Source: a virus. From it: a DNA stretch of 64,000 nucleotides. The stretch spans positions 1 through 64,000 of IMG/VR virus record IMGVR_UViG_3300032163_000009; one strand, 5' to 3'. The translations under genes and the position numbers were made by a program. Each line of letters opens with the position of its first letter. Position 1 is the stretch's first letter. Below the pieces are notes generated by a model, which was not told the DNA's origin, did not search any database, and worked only from the letters and a program-made list of their open reading frames with translations. This document shows, in pieces, positions 57,189-61,092 of the stretch.

Positions 57189-58715
57189 ATGTTATCAACA
57201 AAATCTGCTCGGCAGGCAGGCGTCCCCCTCATTGTCGTTGAAACCAACGACAGCGCCCAATCGGTTAAAACATTTCGCGCGGAGTTAAATGGTCGGGCTG
57301 ACACCAGTCCGATGATTTCGCACGATCTAGGCAGCGGCGTGCAAGCCTACAACGACGTTGGCGGAGAATTGCTGCAAACCTTGTGCGGCGACGAAGATCG
57401 CACCGGCATGAATCCAGCCACGTTCTTAATCAATGTAGCGAAGCTGCGCAGCCTGGAAGTTGAGCAACCGGTCTATGTGTTGCTGTTCAATCCGCAGTTG
57501 TATTGGAACTTGGAGTCCGGCATCACCATTCAGCAAGCGGTCTGGAATCTGCGCGACGTACTCAAGCCCTCGAAATCTCAACTGCTCATGTTCGTGCCGA
57601 CTGGCACGCAATTGCCCGACGTGTTGAAGTCGGACGTGCTGGTGTTGAAAGACACGCTGCCCACGCCTGCGGAGTTGACCGAGATCATCGAACGCACGCT
57701 GAACAGCGCAGTCAAAGCCGGATTGGATGCCAAGAAAATCCCTGATCGCGTGACCATTCTCAAGACACTGACGGGCTTGCCTGCGTTTCCAGCGGAGCAG
57801 GTGTTAGCGATGTCCATTAGTCGTGAGGGCGTTGACACGAAAAATTTGTGGGAGCGCAAGCGCCAAGCGATCGAACAAACGCCCGGCCTCAGCGTGTGGC
57901 GCGGCGGCGAATCGTTTAACGACATTGGCGGCTACGAGAACGTCAAAGAGTTCATGCGGCGCATTATCGGCGGCCGTGACGCGCCGAACGCGATCGTTTA
58001 TCAAGACGAGATGGAAAAGTTTTTCGGCGCGAACGTGACCGGCGACAATACCGGTGTCACGCAAGATCAGTTAGGCGTGCAATTGGCTTACATGCAAGAC
58101 ACCAACGCGCTCGGCTGCATGTTCCTCGGTGTGCGCGGCAGTGGCAAGAGCGCGATTGCCAAAGCGATCGGCAACGAAGCTGGCATCCCCACGATCGCGC
58201 TAGACTTGGGCGGCATGAAGGCGGGCATCGTGGGATCTTCGGAAGCGCGGCTGCGCAGCGCATTCGATGTCGTTAGTTCAATCTCGCAGGGCCGTGTGTT
58301 GTTCATTGCCACCTGCAACTCGGTCGCCACGCTGCCACCGGAATTGCGACGGCGTTACAACTACGGCACTTTCTTCTTCGACATCCCCGACAGCGCCTCG
58401 CGCAAAAAGATTTGGGACATTTACAAAAAGAAGTATCCTGAACTGGCGAAAGAAAAAACGCCATCGGACGAAGGCTGGACGGGCAGCGAGATTCGAAACT
58501 GCGTGATGATTGCGTGGAACTTGAAGATCACGCTGCTGGACGCGGCCAAGTACATTGTGCCGGTGACCGTTAGCGACGCAGTGGCGACCACGCGCCTGTT
58601 AGAGAGCGCCAACAATCGGTATTTGGATGCGTCGAGCGCGGGACTATTCCAATACAAGTCGAAGTCAAAGAGCAGCGCAGCCAATTCGGGCGAGCGCAAA
58701 ATGGAGTTGGATTAA
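57189..58715 (+). CDS. Ycf46-like AAA+ ATPase with permuted core, 508 aa
   Basis: Residues 50-240 form the N-terminal and linker regions seen in Ycf46-type ATPases (for example VLLFNPQLYWNL, QLLMFVPTG, FNDIGGYENV). In the core, IVYQDEMEKFFG (Walker B, Asp 273/Glu 274) and GVTQDQLGVQLAYMQD come first. Walker A follows as LGVRGSGKS (314-321), then GIVGSSEARLRSAF and LFIATCN (sensor 1, Asn 377), and PPELRRRY with possible arginine fingers. In ordinary AAA+ proteins Walker A precedes Walker B. The gene starts a module with DUF1257-like, DUF2997-like and DUF3150-like genes. Confidence 0.8.
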   Translation: MLSTKSARQAGVPLIVVETNDSAQSVKTFRAELNGRADTSPMISHDLGSGVQAYNDVGGELLQTLCGDEDRTGMNPATFLINVAKLRSLEVEQPVYVLLFNPQLYWNLESGITIQQAVWNLRDVLKPSKSQLLMFVPTGTQLPDVLKSDVLVLKDTLPTPAELTEIIERTLNSAVKAGLDAKKIPDRVTILKTLTGLPAFPAEQVLAMSISREGVDTKNLWERKRQAIEQTPGLSVWRGGESFNDIGGYENVKEFMRRIIGGRDAPNAIVYQDEMEKFFGANVTGDNTGVTQDQLGVQLAYMQDTNALGCMFLGVRGSGKSAIAKAIGNEAGIPTIALDLGGMKAGIVGSSEARLRSAFDVVSSISQGRVLFIATCNSVATLPPELRRRYNYGTFFFDIPDSASRKKIWDIYKKKYPELAKEKTPSDEGWTGSEIRNCVMIAWNLKITLLDAAKYIVPVTVSDAVATTRLLESANNRYLDASSAGLFQYKSKSKSSAANSGERKMELD

Positions 58716-58716
58716 C

Positions 58717-58989
58717 ATGCCTTGCGATACAGTTCAAATCACGGGAATTCAATTAGGCAAAGTCGATGCCGCGCTGCTGGAAGCAGCGATGGCGAGTTTG
58801 GACTATCAACGCTATCAATGGAAGTTGATCGGCGAAGAAGTGCAAGTGCGCGGCCAGCGGCTGACCGATGAAGATATTTCAGCGGTCAAGGTGGCGTATT
58901 CGCAGCAGGTGGTGAAGCAGACGGCTAATAAGTTTGGCTGGCAGTTGAAGCAGATTAGCCCGACGCAGTTTGTGGCGGTGAAGCGATGA
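58717..58989 (+). CDS. DUF1257-like (Ycf35-type) protein, 90 aa
   Basis: ATG 58717 lies one base after the ATPase stop. The start MPCDTVQ and the later AYSQQVVKQTANKFGW match the general form of DUF1257/Ycf35 proteins, which sit next to Ycf46-type ATPases in plastids, cyanobacteria and phages. The role is unknown. It overlaps the next gene by four bases. Confidence 0.6.
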   Translation: MPCDTVQITGIQLGKVDAALLEAAMASLDYQRYQWKLIGEEVQVRGQRLTDEDISAVKVAYSQQVVKQTANKFGWQLKQISPTQFVAVKR

Positions 58990-59198
58990 ACGGCGACGAA
59001 ATCAAGATTGAGATTCTCGCAGACGGCACGATCAAGATCGAAACCGATCGCATCGGCCCCGCCAATCACTTGAGCGCCGAACGCTTCATCAAAGAAGCGC
59101 AGCGCTTGGCAGGCGGTGCGACTAAAATCACCCGCAAGGTTGGCAAATTCTTGCGCGGTCAACACGATCATTCACATACTCAAACCGGAGGGCATTGA
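58986..59198 (+). CDS. DUF2997 family protein, 70 aa
   Basis: The opening IKIEILADGTIKIETDRIG is diagnostic of DUF2997. A helix (AERFIKEAQRLAGG) follows, then a basic stretch and a His-rich tail (HDHSHTQTGGH) not usual in the family. DUF2997 genes often accompany Ycf46-like ATPases and DUF1257 genes, as here. Confidence 0.75.
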   Translation: MNGDEIKIEILADGTIKIETDRIGPANHLSAERFIKEAQRLAGGATKITRKVGKFLRGQHDHSHTQTGGH

Positions 59199-59202
59199 GA
59201 GC

Positions 59203-60228
59203 ATGGCAAACAAAACAGCAACACCTAAGAAATTGAGTCGGCAGGTTATCCGCAGCGTGGAGCAGGCTTTTGGCGAAGCCGACAAACCAAGCGGCAGTCA
59301 AACGATCGGTCTCGACGTGTTAGCGAACGCGGCGTTATTCACGTTCACTTTTCACCGCTGGGGCAATCGGCGCAAAGCCGACACCACGCCCGAAGGCGCG
59401 ATCGATGACGAAGACAAGGCGAAGAAGCGCGTGCGATCGACGCTGCGCTTAATTGAGAGCGAAGCGTACGATACCATCAATAGTTATATCAACGAAGCGC
59501 GGCAGTGGCTATTGGGGCGGTGTATGCCGTCCTACATGGTCAAGGGCGTGTTTTTCGTTAAGTTGGATCAAGTCGAAACGTTTGAGGCGAAGATCGCGGA
59601 AGTGAAAGAATGGATGTCCAAGACCGGCTTGCCGGATTTGCTGAGCGACTATGAGCGCGCCATTGATCAAGCGGAAGTAGACTTGCGGGCGGTGTCTCGC
59701 ACACTGCGCAGCGCGGAGTTATTCAATCGCGCCGATTATCCCAAGCCAAACGACTTGCGGTCGCGCTATTATGTGACGCACAACTGGATGAGCTTCGGCG
59801 TGCCGCAGAACTTGCCGCTGAAGATACGCGAGCAGGAAGAGACGAAGATCAAAGCCAAGTTCGAAGACGCAGCCGCCGAAATTACCGAAGCGCTGCGGGC
59901 GGCTTTCAACGAACTGCTCACCACGGCGACGGCGCGACTGACCGCCAACCCCAACGGCAAGAAGATGATCATTCGATCGGCGCTGGTCGACAACTTCAAC
60001 GAGTTCATCGAGACGTTCAACGCGCGGAACTTGACCGACGATCGACAGTTGGAACAACTGGTTGAGCAAGCGCGAGCATTGATGAAGGGGGTCAGCGCCG
60101 AAACACTGCGCACGCGCCCGACGGTGCGGCGCAGCGTGGCCGCGCAGTTGTTAAACTTGCAAGCGGCCGCAAAAGAACTGGTCATCGAGCGACCGGATCG
60201 AAAATTCGACTTTGATGATGAGGAATAA
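59203..60228 (+). CDS. DUF3150-like protein with acidic C-terminal tip, 341 aa
   Basis: ATG 59203 follows CATTGAGAGC and is preferred over 59116, which overlaps the previous gene. The protein is helical, with a CMPSYMVKGVFFVKLDQVE segment and a long coiled core that fit DUF3150 proteins of phages. It ends in RKFDFDDEE, nearly the same as the end of the WGR protein at 60541. This suggests that both bind one partner, in the way single-strand binding proteins use an acidic tip. The function is unknown. Confidence 0.65.
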   Translation: MANKTATPKKLSRQVIRSVEQAFGEADKPSGSQTIGLDVLANAALFTFTFHRWGNRRKADTTPEGAIDDEDKAKKRVRSTLRLIESEAYDTINSYINEARQWLLGRCMPSYMVKGVFFVKLDQVETFEAKIAEVKEWMSKTGLPDLLSDYERAIDQAEVDLRAVSRTLRSAELFNRADYPKPNDLRSRYYVTHNWMSFGVPQNLPLKIREQEETKIKAKFEDAAAEITEALRAAFNELLTTATARLTANPNGKKMIIRSALVDNFNEFIETFNARNLTDDRQLEQLVEQARALMKGVSAETLRTRPTVRRSVAAQLLNLQAAAKELVIERPDRKFDFDDEE

Positions 60229-60230
60229 AC

Positions 60231-60581
60231 ATGCCAACTGTCAGTGACGCCAAACAAGATGAAGTCTGGCAGCACTTGATGCAGTTGCCTGCGTCACACC
60301 GCCCTAACGGTGTGACGCAGGCCAGGCTGGAACGCATCAAGGCGCAGGTCTACCAATACCCGTTCTTCTGGCAAGATGTCGTCGTGCGACATGGCTTGCT
60401 CGATCGAACGCCGGAGCAACTGAAAGCCGCTGATCTCGCGGCCTACGAACACATGCTCGGCAATGCGTGGGGCATGATAGCGACGCTGGTGCAGCAAATG
60501 CTGCTCGCGCCGGAGCAGCCCGAGGTGATTAAGGAGCAGCATGAGCAAAGAGATAGTGCGCAGTGTGCGGCTTTGGAATAA
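60231..60581 (+). CDS. Hypothetical protein, 116 aa
   Basis: A helical protein that lies between two genes with matching C-terminal tips. It overlaps the WGR gene by 41 bases. A perfect 15-bp hairpin lies within its coding sequence (60287-60322). No family was recognised. Confidence 0.65.
   Translation: MPTVSDAKQDEVWQHLMQLPASHRPNGVTQARLERIKAQVYQYPFFWQDVVVRHGLLDRTPEQLKAADLAAYEHMLGNAWGMIATLVQQMLLAPEQPEVIKEQHEQRDSAQCAALE
60287..60322 (+). repeat. Perfect 15-bp inverted repeat inside a gene
   Basis: Arms 60287-60301 and 60308-60322 are perfect complements with a 6-base loop. The sequence is read as coding (around HRPNGVTQ). No T-run follows. It may be a protein-binding site or an mRNA hairpin that affects translation of the gene or the one downstream. 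Confidence 0.7.
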
Positions 60582-61092
60582 CACCGATCGGCACGACAAG
60601 GTGTACGAGATCGATCTGGTGCAGCCTGACGGATCGAAAAATCTGTATGAAGTGCAATTCCGTTACGGGCGGCGCGGCACCAATTTGCAAGTCGGTGTGA
60701 AGGTGCGCGACGTGTCGCTGCTGAAAGCCGAAGCCGTTTACGCTGACCTGTTAGCAACAAAGCGCGGGCGCGGATATGAAATCTTGGCTTACCAATCGGT
60801 ATCCAGCCTCGGAGAAGCCCGCGCTGAGCGAGTTGAATGGACAGGCGAAACGCTGGCAGATAAATCCGAGAAAGCCGCACGCGAAATCTTGGCACAACGG
60901 CAGCGTGAGAGAATCACTGAAATAAACCGGCGCGGAATCAAGCGCTCATTAAGCGACGAAGACATTCTTCTGCGGCGCGTCACGCAAACAACGCAGGCCA
61001 AGCCAGCCGCCAAGCCACCCGCAGGCAAATCGAACACGACTAAACCGATCGGGCCGACCGAGCGGAAATTTACTTTTGACGACGAGGAGTAG
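60541..61092 (+). CDS. WGR domain protein with acidic C-terminal tip, 183 aa
   Basis: Residues 7-80 match the WGR domain (RLWNNTDRHDKVYEIDL, YEVQFRYGRRGTN), a nucleic-acid-binding unit of PARPs and of many bacterial and phage proteins. A helical, charged middle region and a Pro/Lys-rich linker follow. The last residues RKFTFDDEE mirror the end of the DUF3150-like protein. It may bind DNA ends or nicks for the AAA+ module. The start lies within the previous gene, behind AAGGAGC. Confidence 0.8.
   Translation: MSKEIVRSVRLWNNTDRHDKVYEIDLVQPDGSKNLYEVQFRYGRRGTNLQVGVKVRDVSLLKAEAVYADLLATKRGRGYEILAYQSVSSLGEARAERVEWTGETLADKSEKAAREILAQRQRERITEINRRGIKRSLSDEDILLRRVTQTTQAKPAAKPPAGKSNTTKPIGPTERKFTFDDEE

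Follow-up and report, generated by a model that had tools for sequence, protein, structure and literature searches.

RESULTS

A phage AAA+ ATPase with Walker B ahead of Walker A

The product of the gene studied here is most probably an AAA+ ATPase that descends from Ycf46 and is catalytically complete, and two adjacent blocks of its core have changed places, most simply once in an ancestor common to phages and mobile elements of one clade; we give this reading a probability of about nine in ten. The IMG/VR virus record that contains the gene is 77,735 bases long, and the window, i.e. the whole stretch of 64,000 nucleotides that was analysed, covers part of it. The genes of terminase, portal and head protease on the minus strand of the window indicate that the record is a tailed phage.

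The translated gene is a single open frame on the plus strand, and the 508-aa protein matches PF00004 with an E value of 2.6e-11. The coordinates and residue numbers given in a preliminary description of this DNA were found to be correct on retranslation. The chain runs from an N-terminal domain through a DIGG linker to the Walker B block, and then to Walker A, GSSEARLR, sensor 1, Arg389 and the lid (Table 1). The segments AIVYQDEMEKFFG, which carries Asp273 and Glu274, and GVTQDQLGVQLAYMQD stand N-terminal to LGVRGSGKS (Lys320), and GSSEARLRSAF and then sensor 1, LFIATCN (Asn377), come after it; the order first noticed, Walker B before Walker A and sensor 1 after it, is therefore confirmed in the translated frame. 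From the Walker A block to sensor 1, the AlphaFold2 model has helix 350–366 and then strand 370–376, which leaves no space for a second, ordinary Walker B. We also considered that the displaced Walker B could be a part of the first domain and rejected it, as the first domain is already complete and co-linear upstream of the block.

Table 1. Features of the putative permuted ATPase and of its partner genes in the window
Feature	Residues	Coordinates	Strand	Basis
Putative permuted Ycf46-type AAA+ ATPase gene	508 aa	57189..58715	+	open frame, PF00004, full-length relatives
Degenerate N-terminal AAA+ domain (D1-like), without Walker motifs	1-228	57189..57872	+	co-linear with normal-order Ycf46, profile 15-248
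Displaced block B (strand 3, helix 3; Walker B Asp273-Glu274)	268-306	57990..58106	+	profile 326-365; strand 268-272, helix 289-304
Block A (strand 1, helix 1, strand 2, helix 2; Walker A GVRGSGKS 314-321)	309-366	58113..58286	+	profile 267-324
Strand 4 with sensor 1 (Asn377), Arg389 (probable arginine finger), strand 5, C-terminal lid (GWTGSEIR)	369-482	58293..58634	+	profile 367-495
DUF1257 (Ycf35)-like partner gene		58717..58989	+	family members against PF06868 weak, best E 0.0075
DUF2997-like small gene, His-rich tail		58986..59198	+	one family member against PF11211 weak, E 0.015
DUF3150-like partner gene		59203..60228	+	PF11348 matched by 8/20 family members, lowest E 9.4e-8

Two adjacent blocks of the Ycf46-type core are exchanged

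We mapped the protein on an HMM built from an alignment of normal-order Ycf46 proteins. In chain order it covers the profile positions 15–248, 326–365, 267–324 and 367–495, so that the homology to Ycf46 extends over the full length in four stretches, the degenerate first domain included, and the co-linear block order is absent. Compared with the profile, one or two positions are lost at the junctions, except before strand 1, where a linker of ∼18 positions is missing. We concluded that two adjacent blocks, A and B, are swapped in the Ycf46-type core and that the junctions are nearly clean. The preliminary description had held that the Walker B segment was moved and that the regions flanking the core resemble normal-order Ycf46. 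The movement is borne out by the segment mapping, the relatives and the tree, and is now refined to an exchange of two adjacent blocks together with the loss of the ∼18-residue linker; the stretches 15–248 and 367–495 are indeed co-linear with the profile.

The displaced block matched its own Walker B positions of the Ycf46 HMM in all of the 97 permuted relatives, with scores of 12–43 bits and with the match always starting at profile position 326–328, and shuffled control blocks (n = 970) scored at most 4.5 bits on the same HMM. PHROG 8638, a normal-order family, matches the permuted proteins in four stretches and the normal-order proteins in one; similarly, PF00004 covers the core in a single piece in the normal-order relatives but not in the permuted ones. 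By these matches the permuted protein would be a derived offshoot of Ycf46 by descent and no ordinary member, because its blocks A and B are exchanged. A chance motif, or an artefact of sequencing or assembly, was discarded as an explanation of practically negligible probability in view of the ∼100 distinct sequences, the isolate phage Tunturi_3 among them, and of the profile scores far above those of the shuffles.

Phages and mobile elements of one clade share the exchange

A single-sequence scan of viral sequences returned no relatives; they were found by alignment-based scans, which covered viral contigs and bacterial genomes. In these, we observed 97 permuted loci, having Walker B 39–44 residues ahead of Walker A, and 64 normal-order loci, having it exactly 59 residues past Walker A, and the two classes of spacing did not overlap. 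The AAA+ chain order of Walker A, Walker B and sensor 1 is broken in each of the 97 permuted loci. A further scan brought the number of distinct full-length permuted sequences to 100. The carriers of the permuted form are phages and mobile regions in MAGs of Acidobacteriota. Of the annotated phage relatives, gp103 of Tunturi_3, an isolated Acidobacteriota phage, is the closest (∼37% identity), and its motif order is permuted in the same way. The exchange is common to a whole clade of phages and mobile elements and is not a one-off.

A tree was built on alignment columns rearranged into the canonical order. The 91 permuted sequences included in it formed one group with a moderate support of 0.68, whose sister was a normal-order protein from a Planctomycetaceae MAG, L105, with a support of 1.0 for the joint group. 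A single origin of the exchange would be the simplest reading of this tree. L105, the nearest normal-order relative, resembles the permuted protein in its lid, in its C-terminal tail and in having a DUF3150-like gene downstream, but unlike it has the ordinary block order, with PF00004 covering the core in one stretch. By eye, L105 (L181) is flanked by integrase-like frames and has a frame resembling DUF1257 on its upstream side and one resembling DUF3150 on its downstream side; a Pfam scan of the latter two frames gave no match.

The copies in Bryobacterales MAGs are surrounded by frames that by eye resemble mobile-element genes (ThiF-like, single-strand binding protein, Rad52-like and primase-like), and these copies have the look of integrated elements more than of core genes. 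One contig of a Bryobacterales-type MAG (G003:C67) carries two permuted ATPases, L177 and L178, located 127 kb apart, each accompanied by DUF3150-like, SNF2-like helicase and other mobile-element-like genes. Another permuted protein (L172:4875-6392) is divergent and has no TFFFD motif. It was recovered only when the normal-order L105 was used as the query; the scans probably underestimate the breadth of the permuted clade.

The rearranged chain is predicted to close a normal AAA+ sheet

In ordinary AAA+ proteins, the Walker B strand neighbours the sensor 1 strand. We modelled the window protein together with 78 permuted relatives using AlphaFold2 and obtained a model with a pLDDT of 93.9 and a pTM of 0.88; as this program is familiar with AAA+ folds, the model is possibly biased toward them. 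The model shows five main strands in the second domain (268–272, 308–314, 335–338, 370–376 and 394–397), and the residues 268–272, for which a structure prediction had been suggested at the outset, are among them. The model of the normal-order control, L105 (pLDDT 85.6), contains the same elements in the ordinary order.

Foldseek and VIA-align are sequential and are therefore blind to the exchange, so the L105 control model was used to gauge the residues lost. On the crystal structure of p97 D2 (6g2v), the sequential aligner superposed 198 residues of the permuted model (2.4 Å, Z 16.9), whereas for the L105 control it superposed 234 residues (2.2 Å, Z 24.3). The deficit of 36 residues is near the size of block B (39), and the remainder of the permuted model occupies its expected place. 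The whole model could be placed on D1–D2 of p97/Cdc48 with a Z of 19.7 over 401 residues (rmsd 5.1). Like the permuted protein, p97/Cdc48 (VCP) has two AAA+ domains, and the first and second domains superpose; the identity is ∼16%, and in p97/Cdc48 both domains have the Walker motifs in the ordinary order.

Covariation was calculated from the 100 permuted sequences after filtering for block order (∼74 effective sequences). When the Walker B strand (268–273) was slid along the chain, the best coupling was found at 370–375, the sensor 1 strand, with a mean z of 0.75, a value matched by 0.44% of random blocks, a figure uncorrected for the ten strand pairs. The strongest covarying pair overall, Asp293–Glu352, connects helix 3 to helix 2. 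The model, the L105 control and this covariation agree with the earlier suggestion that the permuted core may fold around the same sheet, and they strongly support the prediction that the permuted chain still forms an ordinary AAA+ sheet, in which the strands of Walker B and sensor 1 lie next to each other.

As AAA+ rings set their subunits side by side, the Walker B block could instead complete the sheet of the neighbouring subunit, so that the active site would be shared anew, and the prediction for a monomer is compatible with such a swap. However, the loops are predicted to be short, both from the helix end at 304 to the strand at 308 and from the helix end at 366 to the strand at 370. The first of them, the B–A loop, is ∼3 residues long, and block B is confidently placed within the monomer model. 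We regard the swap between subunits as very improbable.

The catalytic residues are retained

We observed that Asp273, Glu274, Lys277, Gly314, Gly317, Lys320, Gly349, Asn377 and Arg389 are invariant in all of the 100 permuted sequences. The set of AAA+ motifs is complete, comprising Walker A, Walker B (hhhhDE), the sensor 1 Asn and an arginine finger, the last being assigned by alignment to Arg389, which is the probable finger. The exception to this constancy lies in Gly319 (58143–58145), the residue preceding the Walker A lysine, which is invariant in the normal-order Ycf46 alignment and is replaced by Ala or Ser in 56 and by Cys in one of the 100 permuted sequences. Judged by sequence, the Ala or Ser may be an adjustment of the P-loop, or it could mean a weakened hydrolysis.

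The latter would lead to a different view of the protein, in which it binds ATP, hardly hydrolyses it and acts as a structural or regulatory subunit of a ring. The loss of this glycine from ∼57 of the 100 permuted members speaks for such a role, but the Walker B Asp–Glu, Lys320, Asn377 and Arg389 are invariant throughout, and the window protein itself keeps GSGKS. A dead ATPase is unlikely because selection would not preserve such invariant catalytic residues, and we consider the weakly hydrolysing subunit an improbable alternative to the catalytically complete ATPase.

Possible route and consequences of the exchange

The AAA+ sheet has the strand order 5-1-4-3-2, and the catalytic motifs are at the strand ends facing the nucleotide. 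The three breakpoints of the exchange, before strands 1, 3 and 4, would fall at the opposite edge of the sheet, and because they sit away from the nucleotide, the ATP site would need no change. The new connections would run from the linker to strand 3, from helix 3 to strand 1 and from helix 2 to strand 4. Each helix-to-strand loop would move over by roughly the width of one strand, and the normal hand of the crossovers could be retained. The likeliest route to the exchange would be a tandem duplication of A–B, after which the first copy of A and the last copy of B were deleted; an A–B–A–B intermediate was not seen among the relatives found.

Ycf46-type AAA+ ATPases occur in cells and in phages (Pseudomonas phage SM1, Aeromonas phage HJ05; phrog_8638). 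They share with the permuted protein the degenerate first domain, the blocks, the catalytic residues and the DUF1257, DUF2997 and DUF3150 partners, and differ from it in having Walker B 59 residues after Walker A, whereas in the window protein it is 41 residues before and the linker ahead of strand 1 is shortened. Natural reordering of P-loop NTPase motifs with retention of the fold is known from the circularly permuted GTPases RsgA/YjeQ and RbgA/YlqF, whose motif order, G4-G5-G1-G2-G3, is a true circular permutation. In contrast, the permuted ATPase has an internal exchange of two blocks, and the window protein matches AAA+ profiles and not GTPase profiles. To our knowledge, permutation of P-loop proteins has been described for GTPases but not for AAA+ proteins. 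A literature search found no earlier description of a permuted AAA+ core, which is weak evidence as most subscription journals are outside its coverage.

AAA+ is among the most studied motor folds, and its motif order is normally regarded as fixed. We think it rather likely that the permuted clade is the first AAA+ lineage found in nature whose catalytic core is internally rearranged, one that is stable and widespread, is most simply of a single origin, and is rewired at the edge away from the nucleotide with no catalytic residue lost and possibly with an altered coupling between the ATP site and the pore. If this is true, the AAA+ motor tolerates rewiring at that edge while all of its catalytic residues are retained. 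A conserved clade with exchanged blocks is a natural experiment on the chain connections that the motor needs, for which L105 offers a direct partner of comparison in the normal order. Annotation that relies on motif order can overlook or misread working ATPases.

Partner genes of the permuted ATPase

The three genes following the ATPase gene in the window were assigned as DUF1257-, DUF2997- and DUF3150-like solely through their relatives, the Pfam matches of the phage versions being weak (Table 1). Within ∼5 kb of the permuted gene, a DUF1257-like gene was detected with an iterated profile in 88 of the 97 loci, a DUF3150-like gene in ∼87 and a DUF2997-like gene in 29, and never on the other strand. 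The DUF1257-like genes detected by the iterated profile also adjoin 12 normal-order genes, DUF3150-like genes adjoin normal-order Ycf46 genes of Verrucomicrobiota, and the Pfam families DUF1257, DUF2997 and DUF3150 adjoin normal-order Ycf46 genes in bacteria. As the permuted and normal-order loci have the same three partner families, the likeliest role of the permuted protein is that of the ATPase in a phage-borne Ycf46 module, in which it would act as a remodelling ring. Less certainly, we infer a p97-like ring with an inactive first domain and an active second domain, which would remodel a protein or nucleoprotein complex together with the DUF1257-, DUF2997- and DUF3150-like partners.

In Synechocystis, the genes of DUF2997, Ycf35 (DUF1257) and the ferredoxin fed7 are clustered (PMC4284462). 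This cluster, the His-rich tail of the DUF2997-like protein and a radical SAM activase-like gene near six copies in the Acidobacteriota MAGs would suit a module serving metal or iron–sulfur clients, whose ATPase would be a metal-insertion chaperone like the MoxR/NorQ proteins. On the other hand, none of the viral loci yielded the radical SAM motif and no ferredoxin motif was detected near the permuted genes, and we hold a metal-inserting function to be unlikely. A general link to iron–sulfur proteins through radical SAM or ferredoxin genes was likewise not supported by the motif search of the neighbourhoods.

Further downstream in the window, 60541–61092 encodes a WGR-domain protein (PF05406, E 2.9e-6), relatives of which are present near few other permuted loci. 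In phage Tunturi_3, gp96 (L001:9606-10634), deposited as an HNH endonuclease, was identified by phmmer as a relative of the DUF3150-like gene of the window, and its deposited name may be wrong.
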